Below the pieces are notes generated by a model. It saw nothing but the letters and a program-made list of their open reading frames with translations, had not been told where the DNA came from and did no database searches. DNA of 37,064 bases, taken from Planctomycetota bacterium. Lineage in GTDB: Bacteria; Planctomycetota; Phycisphaerae; Phycisphaerales; SM1A02. The stretch lies in the NCBI GenBank assembly GCA_014381305.1, contig JACNLW010000091.1:1-37064 (forward strand), written 5' to 3'. Every line of letters begins with the position of its first letter. The first letter of the stretch is position 1. Shown one piece after another: positions 5,840 through 29,903 of the stretch. Position numbers and translations under genes: made by a program.

Positions 5840-5872
5840 TTTGACCCGCGGTCAAATTGACCGCGGGTCAAA
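5838..5872. repeat. Two palindromes filling the ftsH / minus-strand convergent junction
   Basis: Seen directly: TTTGACC-CGC-GGTCAAA-type unit (AATTTGACC / GGTCAAATT arms, 5838-5858) followed at once by TTGACC-GCG-GGTCAA (5857-5871). The two units are reverse complements of each other, so the whole also folds as one 15-bp stem with a 3-nt loop. It starts at the ftsH stop TAA (5837-5839) and ends a few bases before the stop of the minus-strand gene (5876-5878). It may act as a bidirectional transcription terminator. It belongs to the GAC/GTC repeat type found at every convergent junction here. Confidence 0.85.
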
Positions 5873-8677: not shown

Positions 8678-8750
8678 GGAATAAACTCACCCCCGGTGAG
8701 TTTATTCCTCAGGATTTGACCTCGGGTGAAAAATTTAGACCCCGAGTCTT
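8678..8750. repeat. Palindrome cluster in the prepilin / uvrC convergent junction
   Basis: Seen directly: a perfect 14-bp inverted repeat, GGAATAAACTCACC, loop CCC, GGTGAGTTTATTCC (8678-8708). A near-palindrome TTTGACC-TCG-GGTGAA follows (8715-8730), then a degenerate unit AGACC-CCG-AGTCT (8737-8749). The last two have the same GAC...GTC layout with a 3-nt centre as the other convergent junctions. The uvrC stop TGA (8761-8759) lies in a TTGAC string just beyond. No gene is evident between 8602 and 8758. A bidirectional terminator role is possible. Confidence 0.75.
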
Positions 8751-14010: not shown

Positions 14011-14041
14011 ACACCCCAGCCTCCGGCTGGGGTGTTTTTTT
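14011..14041 (+). terminator. Rho-independent terminator of rpsB-tsf
   Basis: A perfect 11-bp stem ACACCCCAGCC / GGCTGGGGTGT with loop TCC is followed by a T run (14034-14041). Confidence 0.96.
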
Positions 14042-14052
14042 ACCCACACCTT

Positions 14053-14226
14053 AATTGACTCCGAGTGAATTATCTCCTCATTTCATTAATTGACTCCGAG
14101 TCAATTAATCTCTCGTCTTTTTAATTGACTCGGAGTGAATTTATCTCTTTTGTTTCCAATGGTTTACAATCGTCATTTTTTTTGAAATATTACTGACACC
14201 GAAATTTAATTGACTCGGAGTCAATT
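14053..14226. repeat. Four dispersed 19-bp palindromic units between tsf and ggt
   Basis: Units seen: AATTGACTCCGAGTGAATT (14053-14071), AATTGACTCCGAGTCAATT (14088-14106), AATTGACTCGGAGTGAATT (14123-14141) and AATTGACTCGGAGTCAATT (14208-14226). Units 2 and 4 are perfect palindromes: 8-nt arms with a 3-nt centre. The ggt stop TGA (14223-14221) lies inside unit 4, so the repeat encodes the last residue and stop. The same unit recurs at 28070-28316. The rest of this 248-bp junction is AT-rich, with no other signal. Confidence 0.93.
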
Positions 14227-17375: not shown

Positions 17376-18460
17376 ACGCACTTAAAACAATCGGCTGGGG
17401 TCTGTACCTTGCGTGCAGTTGGACGTGGTGTATCGGCATGTTCCTTCCTATTGTTTTGATCGATCGATATGGCTGGGCTGGTTTTTATATGTTCGCAGTT
17501 CCAAACATCATTGGATGCACTGCGTTTGGTTATGTACTGCGAACACCAGAAAGATCAAAAGCAATTGTTGAAAAATATCGTGGGGCGCTTTCTAGTTTCG
17601 CTGTCATCACGATTGCATTTCACGCTTTTTTTCTTGCAATAGTTGCACGGTATTTCATTCCTGACATTCCATCGTGGTGGATGGTTGCGCTTCCTGCACT
17701 GGTAGTACTTACAAGCGCTGTCATAAGTGTGTTGCCAAATCGACTCTGGCCAATACTCGCAACTGCTCTGTGGCTTCTCTCTGTAGGCATTGGCTTCTCG
17801 TTTTGGCCCGGCGCGCTTGATCTCGAAGCAACGCAGACACACCCTTGGCAAGAGGTTGTTTGGTTGCTACCAATTACATCATTTGGTTTTTTTCTCTGCC
17901 CATATCTTGACCCAACATTTCACCGAGCGTTGCAATCTTCACCATCCAAACATTCGTTTGGTGTTTTTGGATTAACTTTTGCATTGATGATTGGACTCAC
18001 TTGTTTGTACCGCGATGCATTGGTTGCGGGACTTGCAGTAGTCATTCTAGTTCACATTATTTCGCAAGCAGTATTCACTGTTGGCGTGCACCTTCGGGAA
18101 GGCTGGTTATGCGAAGTAAAAACTCGTAGAGTGTACTTTGCCCTCGGGACTGTTCTTGCGTGTGCAATTGCAATTGCTGTTGCACACCGCGAGCATGAGA
18201 ATATTCAAGCCATGGCAGATGACTACTTACGGTTCTTTGTTTTTTATGGGCTCGTCTTCCCAGGGCTCGTCGCCGCATTTGTCTGGACAAAAAAACGGTT
18301 GACGCCGCTACGCATCGCACTCTTTACGCTCGTCGCCATTGTTTCACTCCCGCTCCTTGAAGCGGGCTACATCGGAGGCAGCGCCTGGCTTTCTGTCTTG
18401 CCCGTCGTTGTTTTCGCGACATGGGCTTTTGCCGATCAATGTAACTCACGGTCAACTTGA
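17372..18460 (+). CDS. Polytopic membrane protein of unknown function (GTG start)
   Basis: The 362-residue product is almost entirely hydrophobic, with roughly ten to twelve predicted membrane helices and short loops. The first helix is in LYLACSWTWCIGMFLPIVLI, and DRYGWAGFYMFAVPNIIGCTAFGYVL and LDPTFHRALQSS are recognisable loops. The combination of GW-F-MF--PN and a DPTFHRAL loop is faintly reminiscent of solute-symporter-like proteins, but I do not assign a family. The start is GTG, overlapping the stop of the hotdog gene. Its stop TGA (18458-18460) lies inside the 16-bp repeat of the convergent junction with secA. Confidence 0.8.
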   Translation: MNALKTIGWGLYLACSWTWCIGMFLPIVLIDRYGWAGFYMFAVPNIIGCTAFGYVLRTPERSKAIVEKYRGALSSFAVITIAFHAFFLAIVARYFIPDIPSWWMVALPALVVLTSAVISVLPNRLWPILATALWLLSVGIGFSFWPGALDLEATQTHPWQEVVWLLPITSFGFFLCPYLDPTFHRALQSSPSKHSFGVFGLTFALMIGLTCLYRDALVAGLAVVILVHIISQAVFTVGVHLREGWLCEVKTRRVYFALGTVLACAIAIAVAHREHENIQAMADDYLRFFVFYGLVFPGLVAAFVWTKKRLTPLRIALFTLVAIVSLPLLEAGYIGGSAWLSVLPVVVFATWAFADQCNSRST

Positions 18461-18491
18461 GAGTTGGTCAACTTAAGAGTTGGTCAATTTA
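18450..18491. repeat. 16-bp tandem repeat spanning both stop codons at the membrane gene / secA junction
   Basis: Seen: GGTCAACTTGAGAGTT (18450-18465), GGTCAACTTAAGAGTT (18466-18481), then a partial GGTCAATTTA (18482-18491). Each copy contains CAACT-4 nt-AGTTG, a small inverted repeat. The plus-gene stop (18458-18460) and the secA stop (18491-18489) are both inside the array, so the 28-bp gap between the genes is entirely repeat. Confidence 0.85.
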
Positions 18492-21400
18492 ACGTCCGCC
18501 ACAGCATTTTTTATACTTCTTGCCACTTCCACAAGGACATGGTTCGTTGCGACCAACGGTCATTGCACCGCCAGAAGCAGGGTCATCTTTTGATGCAGCA
18601 GCTGATGCTGCACGGACAGATTGCTCCGAAGCTTTAAGTTTCGGTCTTTGTTGCGGTTGTTGCGGAGCTTTTGCACTTTCTTTGGGTGGTTCCTGTTTCT
18701 GTTGCGGTTGTTGAGGCATTCGCACTTGCATTTTTGCCTTAAACACCAAATCAGTTACACGGTCTTGTATGTTTCCAAACATCTCGTCAAAGTTACGAGC
18801 ACCTTCACGCTTGAATTCAATCCGTGGGTCAAGTTGACTAAACGATCTGAACCCAATTGATTCACGTACTTGGTCCATTTGATGTAAATGATCTTTCCAT
18901 GCCGCGTCAAAAATTTGCAGAAGAACATTGCGTTCAAGTTGTGCAAGCTCCGCACGCTGCATTTGTTTGATTTTCCTCGTTGCAATCATTAATGGCTCTT
19001 CTTCAACCTGTTCTTTTTCATCATCGGTCAATGCGAAATTCCAATTTGTACGAAGCCAACCATCGATGTCGCCGTCACTTTCATCAACAAGTCGCTGAGC
19101 ACGCCGCTCTATCCGCTCATCATCCCAGCGTAGTGCTTCTTCAAGCAAAAACTTTTTTAACTCCTCTGGACTATTCGACGGTAAGGTTTGTGGTGTCCAA
19201 TCTAGTTCATACTTCAACTTCACCCATTGACAAAACGCTTCGATTGCTTTGGCTGGATCTTGCTGCAACCGCATAGATGTCATGTCAATCATAAAATCGA
19301 CAGGGTATATTTGTTCTCGCGTACGGTATGCATCTAGGGCACGATCCATGATAAGTTCAACCGCTTCCTCTGGCTCGATGTCAACAAGATCAGCCGCTTC
19401 AAACGGGATTTCAAACTTTGCTTTTACCCACGTTGCCAATTCTTGTTGGGCATGTTGTTCAACAAGGTAGATGTCCAACGGAGATAAATCGGTGGCATGA
19501 ATCTTTGCAGCTGCAGATTCTTCAATTCTCTCAACTATTTCTTCACGGCTAAGTTCTGTTGCTTCAGCAATCGAGAGATCACTGTCCCATGCAACCGACG
19601 CCCAGTCAACGGCGCCTTTGTAATCCCACGTTGTTTCATCTCGTTCAGCAATTTTGCCTTCACCAAGATCAATGGTGTCAGGCAAATATTCACCAATCGT
19701 CACGCGTATGATTTCCGCTGATTCGCCAAGGGCATCGCGGATTATTAATTTATGTAAATCCTCACGATCCTTGCCAATCATCCGTTCGGCATCGATCGTT
19801 ACAGAGAGATTTTCTCTCAACCATTCCTCAATACAGTTCGCTGAATAAGAGATGTCTAGATAATTAAACACTGAATCTTCAACTGCTTGTTCGATATATT
19901 CAAAAATCAACTCTCGTATTTCAATTCCTTCCAACACACGTTGACGTAAATCATAAAAGACATGGCGTTGATGGTCCATCACCTCGTCATATTCGAGAAT
20001 ATTTTTACGAACAAGGAAATTTCGTTCTTCAACTTTGCGTTGGGCCTTTGTAATTGCTTTTGTGAGCATGTTGTGCTCAATCGCAACACCTTCCTTCATT
20101 CCCATTTTGCTCAAGAGTTGAAGCGTGCGAGGACCTGCAAACATTTTCATCAGATCATCTTCAAGACTTAAGAAAAATCGTGTTGAGCCGTTGTCACCTT
20201 GACGTCCAGAACGGCCACGAAGCTGATTATCAATACGCCGAGCTTCATGCCGTTCAGTTGCAACAACATGTAAGCCGCCCATGTCTTCAATATTTTTGTA
20301 GAACCGAAGACTGTGCAACATGCACGCGCCGCTTCGATCAAGATCCTCGATCATCTTCTTTTCACTTGTAGATGATGCTTTATCGCCATCAACCCACCAG
20401 CAATAAGTGCTCCACCAATGCGATAGTAATCGTTTGTAAACATCTGCATCGTCCATTGCTTCTACATCTGTTTTTTTCAAACCAAGTTCTTTGGGTGCGA
20501 CATGTCGCCAAATTTTCTTTACGACTTCTTCTTCTCCAATATCAGCAGAAACATCTCGTGGACAAAGATCGCGGCGTTTCCAATGTTCGATCAAATCTTC
20601 TGGTGACAGAGGACTTAATTTAATGTCCGTACCCCGACCAGCCATATTGGTTGCAACCGTTACAGCACCAAGGTTGCCTGCAAATTTAATAATTTCAGAT
20701 TCACGTTCATGCTGTTCAGCGTTGAGTACTTCATGTGGAACTTTAAAACGCCTTGTCAAAATATCACTCAACTCTTTTGATTTTTCAACACTTGTCGTGC
20801 CAACCAAGGTCGGTCTGCCAACGTCATGCATAGCGTGAATTTCATTCACTGCTGCGTTTACCTTGTCTTTTTCTGATGTAAATACCAAGTCGTTGTGATC
20901 TATTCGTGTGATCGGAACGTTCGTTGGGATCACAATAACATCAAGTGAGTAAATTTCATAAAACTCAGTTGCTTCAGTGTCCGCTGTTCCCGTCATGCCA
21001 GCGAGTTTGTCGTACAACTTAAAGAAGTTTTGAATTGTAATCGTAGCCATGGTTTGCGTCTCTTGCTTGATCGGAACGCCTTCCTTCGATTCAATCGCTT
21101 GGTGCAATCCATCTGACCACTGTCGACCAACCATTTTACGACCGGTGTTTTGATCAATAATGACAATCGTTTGCTCGCCTTTGTCATCTGGCGCAACAAT
21201 GTAATCACCGTCGCGTTTATACACTGCATGCGCACGAATGGATTGTTCCAAAAGGTGCGGCACGTCCATATTTTGCCCTACGTAGAAAGAACCGATTCCA
21301 GCTTCGTTTTGTGCTTCAGCGATGCCTTCGTGCGTGAGTGTTGCTCGTTTTTTATCAAGTTCTAATTCGTAAAACTGTGTGTATGCATCCCGATTCGATT

Positions 21401-26738: not shown

Positions 26739-28070
26739 ATGACACATCACCATCACCATGAAGACGAAAACATGAGTACCGGAAATGAAAACGCCTACTC
26801 CAGACGCTTATTTATGCAGCAAGGCATGGTCTTCTTATCCATGGCCACAACTGTTCCATCTTTTTTACAAAATTCTGCGCATGGAATCATGCTTCCAGTG
26901 GGTTCGCTAGTTACATCCCAAGCGGGTGTTCCTGATGACCGAGTGTTGGTTGTTATCCAACTTGCTGGCGGGAATGACGGGCTCAACACTGTTGTGCCGT
27001 ACGGCTCAAGAGATTATTACAACAATCGCTCACAGTTAGCAATCGGAGCTCCCGGAAATTCTCGAAGTAATGCTGGTAGCGCCTTGTCTATTCCAGGTGC
27101 AGATGGAATAGGTCTCCATCCAAACTTAACAGGTCTTCGAGAACTTATTGATGGTGGCCAAGCAGCAATCGTGCAAGGTGTTGGGTATCCGAACCCAAAC
27201 CGCTCTCACTTTACTTCAACTGACATTTGGCAAACTGGTAACCATTCAGCACAAGGTTATGGCTGGTTAGGAAAATACTTCGACAACACATGTGCCGGAA
27301 AACCAAATCCAAAAGGATCAATTGCAATCGGCTCTAAAGCACCACTTGCACTGCATGGAAAAACACAGAAAGCAGTGAATTTTGAAACAGAAGAACTTTT
27401 CAGGTGGGCTGGAAAGAGTAGTGACGATTCGCTTGCTGCGACTTATGATGACATCAACCGCCTCGAAACGATGCAAGGTGTCTCCAAAGATAGTCAATTA
27501 GATTTTCTTGTTCGCACTTCGTTAGATGCACAAGTTTCTTCAGATCGGATTCGAAAAGCAGTGCAAAAGCAACCGCTCGTGAAATACCCAGATGGGCAAC
27601 TATCCCAACAATTGCAGATGATCGCATCAATGATTCGTGCAGATCTACCAACTCGTGTGTACTACGCCAGTCTAGGTGGATTTGACACCCATGCGAATCA
27701 GTTAAATTCTCACGCGAATCTCATGCGGCAAGTTGGTGATTCGCTAAACGCATTCCAAAAAGATGTTTCTGCGCAGGGCAATGGTGGAAAAGTATTGACG
27801 ATGATGTTTAGCGAGTTTGGAAGGCGAGTTGCACAAAACGGTTCTGCTGGAACGGATCATGGCACTGCTGCACCGATGTTCTTGATTGGCGACATGGTGA
27901 AACCAGGTTTGCTTGGGATGCACCCATCAGTTACAAAACTTGACGAAGGCGATTTGATATACAACACTGACTTCAGGCAAGTCTACGCAACGGTCCTCTC
28001 TGACTGGATGGGCGCTGATGACAAAGCAATCCTCGGAAAAACATACACCAAAGCCAACGTACTAAAATAA
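26739..28070 (+). CDS. DUF1501 domain protein with Tat-type signal
   Basis: The 443-residue product is a DUF1501 protein of the alkaline-phosphatase-like/sulfatase-like superfamily: VLVVIQLAGGNDGLNTVVPYG, LHPNLTGLRELIDGGQAAIVQGVGYPNPNRSHF, STDIWQTG, and later GGFDTHANQ, MMFSEFGRRVAQNGSAGTDHGTAAPMFLIGD. A twin-arginine motif SRRLFMQ precedes a hydrophobic stretch, so Tat export is likely. The extreme N-terminus MTHHHHHEDENM is a natural five-His run. The start is preceded by GAGG with an 8-nt gap; a second start at Met12 would remove the His run. It is coupled to the DUF1800 gene and ends immediately before the 19-bp repeat array. Confidence 0.93.
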   Translation: MTHHHHHEDENMSTGNENAYSRRLFMQQGMVFLSMATTVPSFLQNSAHGIMLPVGSLVTSQAGVPDDRVLVVIQLAGGNDGLNTVVPYGSRDYYNNRSQLAIGAPGNSRSNAGSALSIPGADGIGLHPNLTGLRELIDGGQAAIVQGVGYPNPNRSHFTSTDIWQTGNHSAQGYGWLGKYFDNTCAGKPNPKGSIAIGSKAPLALHGKTQKAVNFETEELFRWAGKSSDDSLAATYDDINRLETMQGVSKDSQLDFLVRTSLDAQVSSDRIRKAVQKQPLVKYPDGQLSQQLQMIASMIRADLPTRVYYASLGGFDTHANQLNSHANLMRQVGDSLNAFQKDVSAQGNGGKVLTMMFSEFGRRVAQNGSAGTDHGTAAPMFLIGDMVKPGLLGMHPSVTKLDEGDLIYNTDFRQVYATVLSDWMGADDKAILGKTYTKANVLK

Positions 28071-28316
28071 ATTGACTCCGAGTGAATTAATTGACTCCGA
28101 GTGAATTAATTGACTCCGAGTGAATTAAATTACTCCGAGTCATATAAAAAAATCAAATTCGCCGTTGCAAACACTTGGTATTAAAGAAGATAAATTGACT
28201 CCGAGTGAATTAATCGCAACTTGATTTAATTCACTCCGAGTCAATTTATCGCGTCAAAAATTAATTCTCTCCGAGTCAATTAATCTCAGGAAAAATTAAT
28301 TGACTCGGAGTCAATT
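28070..28316. repeat. Array of 19-bp palindromic units between the DUF1501 and CRTAC1 genes
   Basis: Three identical head-to-tail copies of AATTGACTCCGAGTGAATT (28070-28088, 28089-28107, 28108-28126) are followed by a degenerate fourth (28127-28145) and a spaced copy at 28193-28211. Three units in the opposite sense come next: AATTCACTCCGAGTCAATT (28228-28246), AATTCTCTCCGAGTCAATT (28263-28281) and the perfect palindrome AATTGACTCGGAGTCAATT (28298-28316). The array begins at the last base of the DUF1501 stop codon and ends over the stop TGA (28313-28311) of the facing gene. No gene lies in this 240-bp stretch. Confidence 0.95.
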
Positions 28317-29903
28317 TTTCTGGAGGAGTGTGAAATCGCCCTTGCGGGGGAGATTTCCAACAACTTGTCGATCGCCATCGCCCCATGTAATTTCTAATTT
28401 TTTGGGATATCGGCCTAGTGGGAACGTAAAGGTAGGATCCGTAAACGCGGAAGATTGAAAACCCCCTCCGCTGTGGTTCCATCTCGAAACAACAGATCCA
28501 TCATCAAGGGTAATTTTTAATCTAGCACCCATCGCTTGCCCTTCCAAATGAATGACCAATGGTCTTCGACCAACCACATCATTTCGCAACACACGAACAG
28601 GACCACTCCGCTGTGCAACAATAACATCCGTATCTCCATCGCCATCAAGATCGCCAAAAACAGCTGCGCGGTCTCGATAGTTTTTTTCGCCTAATGTCGT
28701 GCTCACTTTCCTGAACCTATCTCCAACTCTAGACATCCACAAGAGCGGCTGCGCACGTTCACTGTCCATTGATGCTAACGTCGCTTCTGGGTACACATGT
28801 CCATTGACTACAAGCAAGTCTTCATCGCCATCCAAATCAAAATCATGAAACCCACATGACCAACCAAGCAATGTTCGGCTCAGCAAACCCAAACCAAAAA
28901 GTTTTGTACGGTCTTCAAAATACGTACCGTCATTCAATTGCAACGTGTTCGTATCACTTGAAAAATTTGTCGTAAAAAAATCAGGCATTCCATTGTTATC
29001 AATATCCGCTACTGCAATTCCCATAGTCGCTTGCATTGACCCATCACCGTTCGCCGCTGCACCTGATCGAGTTGCAATATCTCTAAACGTAGTTTCTTTT
29101 TTCTGTTGATTCAAAAACAAATTGTTTGCCATCGAATCATTTCCAACGTACACATCTTGCCATCCATCATCATTCACATCAAGAATCACAACGTTGAGCG
29201 AAAATGCTGCAGTTGCATCGAGTTGCCACGATTCGGTAACATCTCTAAAAACTCCACCTCCTATATTTTCATAAACAATATCTTTTTCAGGAGTTAATCC
29301 ATGCGGTCCACCAAGCACCGACACGCCTTTGTATTTCGCTCTTGGCGGCGGATTTTGTGTATCAAACTGCAAATAATTGCAAACATACAAATCGAGGTCG
29401 CCATCATTGTCCAAATCGCCGAACGCTGCACTTGTTCCCCAGCGATCATCTCCAACACCTGCTTGCTTGGTGACATCTGTAAATGAATCGCCTTCATTAT
29501 TCAGCAACAATACATTTTCACCAAAACATGTTACATACAAATCTTCGAAACCATCACCATTGACATCTCCAACCGCTACACCATTTGCCCACCGCTTAAT
29601 ATCAATACCTTTTTCCTTTGTAACATCTTGAAATGCAATAGAGCCACTACTTATATTTTCATACAAACGACACGGTTGATCTGAGGCATTGACGACAAAC
29701 AAATCCAAATCGCCATCGTTGTCGTAATCAAACAAGCCAAGACCAGTGCCATTTACTTCAATAATTTGCGTTGGGTCTGCAGCGCCACATACAGTAGGCG
29801 CAATCACCGTTTCAACTTCAGTAAACAAAAACGGTGAGGCATTTTGATCCTGCGCAACATCGCTACATCCAACAAGACATAAAATAAACACTAAATACTT
29901 CAT
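28311..29903 (-). CDS. CRTAC1/ASPIC-UnbV family FG-GAP lipoprotein
   Basis: The 530-residue product has a lipoprotein signal ending LVGC (Cys13). It contains at least six FG-GAP/VCBS blades with calcium-type loops, such as GLFDYDNDGDLDLFVVN, VGDVNGDGFEDLYVT, FGDLDNDGDLDLYVCNY and FGDLDGDGDTDVIVAQRSG, consistent with a beta-propeller. The C-terminal 80 residues (ARLKITLDDGSVVSRW, YPKKLEITWGDG) match the ASPIC/UnbV domain. Such proteins sit on the cell surface or periplasmic membrane; their ligands are unknown. The start overlaps the TPR lipoprotein stop as ATGA, suggesting a shared function, a pairing common in planctomycetes. The last codons lie in the 19-bp repeat. Confidence 0.92.
   Translation of the reverse strand: MKYLVFILCLVGCSDVAQDQNASPFLFTEVETVIAPTVCGAADPTQIIEVNGTGLGLFDYDNDGDLDLFVVNASDQPCRLYENISSGSIAFQDVTKEKGIDIKRWANGVAVGDVNGDGFEDLYVTCFGENVLLLNNEGDSFTDVTKQAGVGDDRWGTSAAFGDLDNDGDLDLYVCNYLQFDTQNPPPRAKYKGVSVLGGPHGLTPEKDIVYENIGGGVFRDVTESWQLDATAAFSLNVVILDVNDDGWQDVYVGNDSMANNLFLNQQKKETTFRDIATRSGAAANGDGSMQATMGIAVADIDNNGMPDFFTTNFSSDTNTLQLNDGTYFEDRTKLFGLGLLSRTLLGWSCGFHDFDLDGDEDLLVVNGHVYPEATLASMDSERAQPLLWMSRVGDRFRKVSTTLGEKNYRDRAAVFGDLDGDGDTDVIVAQRSGPVRVLRNDVVGRRPLVIHLEGQAMGARLKITLDDGSVVSRWNHSGGGFQSSAFTDPTFTFPLGRYPKKLEITWGDGDRQVVGNLPRKGDFTLLQKN

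Follow-up and report, generated by a model that had tools for sequence, protein, structure and literature searches.

The window, by which we mean the whole 37,064-nt stretch of planctomycete DNA analyzed here, contains a short repeat array between two convergent genes, one for a DUF1501 protein, which adjoins a DUF1800 gene (Pfam), a pairing suggestive of a planctomycete, and one for an FG-GAP/UnbV_ASPIC protein (Table 1). A first-pass annotation, made from the letters of the window, had described this array as three abutting exact copies, a decayed fourth, a spaced fifth, and three units in the opposite sense (28228, 28263, and 28298), and this description proved correct. The unit nearest to the minus-strand gene (28298–28316) is indeed a perfect palindrome, and the array does run from stop codon to stop codon: the TAA of the left gene (28068–28070) has its last base in common with the first unit, and the minus-strand TGA (28311–28313) lies within the last. 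The same annotation held that the GTGAATT end is invariably directed away from whichever gene is closer. This rule fails at the unit at 28193–28211, for which the right gene, at 99 bp, is closer than the left one, at 122 bp. Scanning the window for the unit with up to three mismatches returned 22 matches, corresponding to 11 places found on both strands each (shuffle mean 0.04), and four of these 11 places form a second array.

Table 1. Repeat units, motifs, and neighboring genes at the two arrays of the window
Feature	Position	Strand	Basis
DUF1501 protein gene, left neighbor of array 28070–28316	26739..28070	+	Pfam
Exact unit, three copies, AATTGACTCCGAGTGAATT, abutting head-to-tail, C center, right arm variant (GTGAATT)	28070..28126	+	sequence
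Decayed unit AAATTACTCCGAGTCATAT, 4 mismatches vs consensus	28127..28145	+	sequence
Second-motif-like stretch (TATCTCGTTTGTTACCAATATGTTAC type)	28167..28192	-	by eye; >8 mismatches, below scan
Exact unit, C center, right arm variant	28193..28211	+	sequence
Unit AATTCACTCCGAGTCAATT, C center, left arm variant	28228..28246	+	sequence
Unit AATTCTCTCCGAGTCAATT, C center, left arm variant	28263..28281	+	sequence
Perfect palindrome, G center, holds right gene's stop codon	28298..28316	-	sequence
FG-GAP / UnbV_ASPIC protein gene, right neighbor of array 28070–28316	28311..29903	-	Pfam
Second array, units at 14053, 14088, 14123, 14208, centers C C G G	14053..14226	.	unit scan
Second motif right after G-centered unit, 5 mismatches vs motif consensus	14142..14167	+	motif scan

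The cluster at 28070–28316 is real but not local: it is one among about 25 sites in the genome of the window (G000, a 1.88-Mb draft in 114 contigs). The family unit, AATTGACTCSGAGTCAATT, is a palindrome about a single central C or G. The strict form TNACTCCGAGTNA has 112 matches in G000 and the reversed control none, and all 112 fall inside the loci that we examined. Allowing up to four mismatches, we counted 129 units in 26 multi-unit arrays of three to eight units, or 25 sites when the two arrays that flank a transposase gene count as one; these counts leave out loci L033 and L037, in which even the best unit had 3 mismatches, units with more than four mismatches, and two single units in genes. 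Most neighboring units (n = 103 spacings) follow each other at 35 bp (48) or 36 bp (19). Outside this genome the unit is scarce. The 12 congeners hold between zero and three matches per genome, 27 of 101 genomes, G000 included, have any match, and the exact 19-mer occurs at three places in 84,980 species genomes and at four in viral contigs, in a collection that may omit records near the window's own.

The units are mainly intergenic; the two single units sit within genes. A perfect 19-bp unit lies in a 703-aa reading frame on contig C73 (L043, 1175–1193), where it is translated as VIDSESI; among the relatives' sequences examined, the sole match to this frame is 26% identical and does not cover the unit region. 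In 6 of the 25 arrays with both neighbors called, a unit contributes a neighbor's stop codon (the edge array L042 has no called left neighbor). A crude gene caller placed these 25 arrays at 10 tandem, 9 divergent, and 6 convergent junctions; the corresponding numbers across every junction in these loci were 69, 29, and 24. This caller set both transposase-flanking arrays as divergent, the transposase gene and aroK having scored below its threshold. By eye these two arrays are convergent and tandem, which corrects the totals to 7 convergent, 7 divergent, and 11 tandem.

The arrays share a polarity that is visible in the center bases, which run from C to G. The 103 steps between neighbors comprise 39 CC, 39 GG, 21 CG, and 4 GC; shuffles contain on average 19.7 GC steps, and none of 10000 had as few as 4. 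An array starts with C and ends with G in 17 of 26 cases. We rejected transcript polarity as the cause of this order because divergent junctions have it as well. The outermost arms are also set apart from the rest: all 52 are intact vs 128 of 206 inner arms (P 1e-9, from counts that are not independent events, since the units are related copies), and genome-wide a variant arm never faces outward at any of the 26 left or 26 right ends. Within the unit, positions 5 and 15 are the most variable.

The 16–17 nt spacers have a mean inner identity of 0.58 within arrays vs 0.39 between arrays, a value reached in none of 200 label shuffles. A spacing of 19 bp occurs in 3 of the 103 neighbor spacings, and these abutting copies are found only in the array at 28070–28316 among the 26. 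Both observations support the local duplication that the first-pass annotation had proposed, which may well have lengthened this array. The spacers also led us to reject a CRISPR array, since they are alike within arrays rather than unrelated and unique. Folded as single-stranded DNA, the unit reaches -5.0 kcal/mol (z -6.4) and the GTGAATT variant -1.3. Co-variation of facing arms toward one long hairpin was considered and rejected: the 68 facing pairs (35–37 bp) fit independence, with right C/left G in 27 and right G/left C in 5 pairs, where 27 and 5.5 are predicted. A second motif (near TATCTCGTTTGTTACCAATATGTTAC) follows immediately after G-centered units in nine places, and 11 of its 12 scan matches lie within arrays, a count that leans upward because the consensus was built by eye from the same arrays; a shuffled consensus gave 0–3 matches. 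The four bases preceding the unit are most commonly ATTT, AATT, and TTTT.

G000 encodes three genes with a Y1_Tnp domain. One of them, on contig C87 (ORF of 254 aa), lies between two family arrays of three units each and is flanked by a shikimate kinase gene and an L34 gene. Judged by match positions, nowhere else do two arrays lie within less than 1 kb of each other on either side of a gene. The C87 protein scores 51.1 bits against Pfam Y1_Tnp (cutoff 23) and 56.6 bits against the RAYT model of NCBIfam, REP_Tyr_transpos (cutoff 80). It contains the motifs NHWH and Y-NP (YLAMNP), and its best match among solved structures is 4er8, a TnpA-REP (E 0.1). In the congener G009, a Y1 gene with 41% identity to that on C87 sits between the same shikimate kinase and L34 genes with other repeats alongside, and a second one, 51–52% identical, has AATAAACTCACC-CCC-GGTGAGTTTATT on both sides. 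In a tree of 21 Y1 proteins, C87, the two G009 proteins, and two from other genera cluster (98/95), and seven shorter Y1 proteins of the genus are set apart (100/100). Scans flagged tandem or palindromic repeats beside 8 of 10 Y1 genes of the genus; the unflagged ones are L122, which by eye has a long inverted repeat, and L123. The two remaining Y1 genes of G000 also have repeats alongside, namely a 13-bp tandem array with GGGGTC/TGACCCC on C110 (L117, 1950–2090) and an array of about 600 bp with a 12-bp period on C103 (L118, 2040–2660). No Y1_Tnp match was found in 9 of the 12 congeners, among them G002 and G005.

These two relatives allowed us to inspect the same junctions in other species. 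Thirteen of the 25 sites are visible with both flanks, 11 in G002 (607 kb) and 3 in G005 (456 kb), one site being seen in both; the flanking DNA of G002 is about 75–83% identical to that of G000. With thresholds chosen after the first four sites had been viewed (3 mismatches to TTGACCGCGGGTCAA, 4 to the unit), the scan detected related palindromes at 7 of the 11 G002 sites (L036, L039, L040, L051, L052, L054, L056), for the most part TTGACC-NCG-GGTCAA units with a spacing of about 16 bp. The 607 kb of G002 contain nine strong clusters of this type, defined by two units or at most 2 mismatches, and seven of the nine fall at array junctions, the gaps of which total about 1.1 kb (control matches 4 vs 21). 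Three of the G002 sites fold into long hairpins, with energies between -20.7 and -35.6 kcal/mol and z values between -6.4 and -13.5. At the other four sites (window 28070, L048, L050, L053) the scan found no related palindrome; the L053 site (L216 in G002) carries a different tandem repeat around GGGACAGGTCCAAGT, which by scan is unrelated. G005 has no strong TTGACC cluster in its 456 kb, and shows a unit-like palindrome at 2 of 3 sites: TTTTGACTCCGAGTCAAGT at L045, with 3 mismatches, and the weak relic AATTGACCCCACCTCAATT at the 28070 junction, with 4.

The ends of some arrays can be aligned letter by letter with the relatives. The left end of L056 reads TCTATCGGCAATTAATTGACTCCGAGTCAATTT here and TCTATCGGCAAATAATTGACTCGCAGTCAAATT in G002, the left end of L039 reads CATAATTGACTC and CATAATTGACCC, respectively, the right end of L040 is GTCAATTATGATGC in both genomes, and the right end of L045 aligns in place with G005 (by reading). 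Therefore, the outer arms are shared and the interiors differ. At L052 and on the right side of L039, the array of G000 is immediately adjoined on its outer side by an arm of the G002 type (by reading), as if the array had entered an older hairpin. The copy-number comparison that the first-pass annotation had recommended for the 28070 junction also shows a difference, here between species with one genome each: eight units in G000, one weak relic in G005, and none found in G002. Reading the same junction in G001, G003, G004, G006, and G007 revealed no array. The distance from stop codon to stop codon is 240 bp in G000 vs 22 bp in G005 (by reading), and the tips of the FG-GAP protein differ as well (...GDFTLLQKN here, ...GVFTIIQPNLN in G005, ...GDFIVTQID in G002).

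The explanation that we consider probable is a dispersed, REP/REPIN-like family that has no GTAG foot and is linked to a RAYT-like Y1 (HUH) transposase, with many sites older than the species and interiors rewritten in G000. Rewriting and expansion of these interiors were probably carried out by the transposase. On this explanation G002 would have kept, at the same junctions, similar outer arms (TTGAC...GTCAA) around another interior, several of them as long hairpins, and the interior in G000 would have been rewritten to GACTC-S-GAGTC units at 35–36 bp, homogenized between sites, and lengthened. The TnpA-REP of E. coli cuts single-stranded REPs and not the complement, according to the available part of PMC8266576. 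By analogy, the C87 transposase may act on single-stranded hairpins of one strand only. It would cut at the outer arms of an array, which could then be joined at a site already occupied by a related hairpin, with new copies inserting into the old ones or taking their place. Local duplication would subsequently add units and the inner arms would drift. The outer arms would be kept because movement needs them, and in this way interiors could grow alike as the sites stay. What the sequence itself shows is the family, the Y1 gene with an array on either side, palindromes at orthologous sites, intact outer arms, the C-to-G order, and similar spacers within arrays; we infer recognition, cutting, and transposition or conversion, with the C87 transposase as the agent.

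The state of G002, where the palindromes are few, short, and mixed and no Y1 gene was detected, fits this proposal in one comparison; G002 and G005, both devoid of a Y1_Tnp match, have short arrays only. Since G002 retains hairpins without a detected Y1 gene, such hairpins need no Y1 gene now. Besides these hairpins, further observations count against the probable explanation: there is no GT[AG]G foot, the score against the RAYT model is below its cutoff, 4 of 11 G002 sites, including the 28070 junction, show no related palindrome by the scan, and a second palindrome family of G000 (described below) has outer arms that are only weakly better kept and no detected transposase of its own. We saw no sign of excision, target duplication, or activity.

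REP families have been characterized as species-specific and fast-changing. In the present case, two sister species differ in the palindromes at shared sites, and a transposase gene was detected in one of them and not in the other. A bolder version of the rewriting proposal, which we offer tentatively and would not bet on, is that a RAYT-like transposase rewrites the interiors of inherited intergenic hairpin sites in concert across the genome, keyed to TTGAC...GTCAA with no guide tetranucleotide, and that the sister species differ for this reason. If this were true, REP turnover could be observed as it happens, in the form of sequence replacement at sites that stay put, and short oligonucleotides could be used to test both the moving unit and the rule of recognition (outer arms, central base).

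Among the other explanations, the best survivor is that the units are binding sites of a host protein or functional hairpins, phased at 35–36 bp and retained because the host requires them, with a sequence that changes in step with its reader protein and with the Y1 gene as a bystander. The dyad symmetry and even spacing of the palindromes would suit such sites, as would the positions shared with G002 at 7 of 11 junctions despite a different sequence, and the long hairpins that G002 keeps without a detected Y1 gene. This reading nevertheless seems unlikely to us, because it makes the transposase gene between two arrays a coincidence and has to accommodate three to eight units per array at tandem, divergent, and convergent junctions alike, a sequence missing from most congeners, and inner arms that drift. 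Less probable still is recent insertion, by which the arrays would have jumped as ordinary REPINs into empty junctions. We had initially read the sites as empty from gap lengths only, and withdrew this reading when related palindromes were found at most junctions in G002. This shifted our preference away from simple insertion and toward older sites whose interiors were rewritten. The unit is almost absent from congeners and no related palindrome was found at 4 of 11 G002 and 1 of 3 G005 junctions, so that single sites could still fit an insertion; the palindromes at 7 of 11 and 2 of 3 junctions, with 7 of 9 strong G002 clusters exactly there, refute it for the seven G002 sites.

Transcription terminators or 3'-end RNA hairpins are a very improbable explanation. 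The array at 28070–28316 does lie between convergent genes, and the units are foldable and in some cases overlap stop codons, but by the count of the crude caller given above 9 of 25 arrays are divergent and 10 tandem, and a distinct hairpin, rich in G+C and accompanied by a run of T (14017–14050, by eye), precedes the array at 14053–14226. An assembly artefact we regard as the least credible option: the draft has 114 contigs, six ends of which are no more than 100 bp away from a second-family unit, yet the 26 arrays have distinct flanks, several of them syntenic with relatives, and an artefact could affect only the copy number of the three abutting units.

Several known systems resemble this family in part. 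As far as the available portions of PMC8266576 (the REPtron of S. maltophilia) and PMC3116915 (the REPINs of P. fluorescens SBW25) describe them, REP/REPIN and TnpA-REP systems consist, as here, of dispersed short intergenic palindromes in inverted pairs and tandem clusters. The mark of a REPtron is a Y1 gene bordered on both sides by repeats of its own family, which is what we found at C87. The S. maltophilia REP has a perfect stem of 8 bp and a loop of 3 nt (PMC8266576), as does the present unit. The canonical REP has a GTAG/GTGG foot 0–2 nt 5' of the hairpin, compared with 0 of 128 units here on either strand; therefore, we do not file this family among canonical REPs. It also differs from REP/REPIN systems in that the strand is distinguished solely by the central C or G, in the arrays phased at 35–36 bp, and in sites common to sister species with a different palindrome. 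TIRYTs, in the passages available from PMC3733652, likewise comprise a Y1 gene with flanking repeats that are possibly self-complementary and clustered; their terminal inverted repeats have the consensus GGGGWSAS, which is absent from the unit consensus here. Other Y1 genes of this genus, such as that on C110 of G000 with its GGGGTCAGACCCC-like repeats, look closer to TIRYTs. TnpA-Y1 class 3 of Planctomycetes, Acidobacteria, and Proteobacteria, in the part of PMC6006769 available, similarly pairs a Y1 gene with atypical flanking hairpins of potentially high copy number, but is characterized by a Y----Q motif and a CnGA foot, whereas C87 has YLAMNP and other feet. Our literature searches turned up no paper dealing with arrays of this kind, or with shared-site turnover of REPs in planctomycetes.

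The second palindrome family mentioned above, ACTCACC-SSS-GGTGAGT, has 133 copies in G000 with a usual spacing of 46–47 bp (window 8680–8706; loci L163–L182) and 10 copies in G009, where they flank a Y1 gene; the 11 other congeners have none. No transposase for this family was found in G000. The gene for ThiG, which neighbors the corresponding Y1 gene in G009, was not found in the G000 assembly either, so an assembly gap is possible. The six contig ends within 100 bp of second-family units (C2, C4, C7, C10, C15, and C23 of G000) suggest that these repeats probably break the assembly. As a control for the orthologous-site analysis, second-family sites in the examined parts of the relatives yielded two cases with both flanks, neither with a related palindrome, a number too small to carry weight. 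The outer arms of this family are only weakly better kept than the inner ones (24/40 vs 17/48, P 0.03). Two further repeats of the window, for which the examined parts of the relatives gave no both-sided match, are a tandem repeat of 16 bp, GGTCAACTTAAGAGTT, which lies between convergent genes (18450–18492), and a stop-to-stop hairpin, TTGACCCGCGGTCAAATTGACCGCGGGTCAA (5841–5872), of the TTGACCGCGGGTCAA type seen at the G002 array sites.
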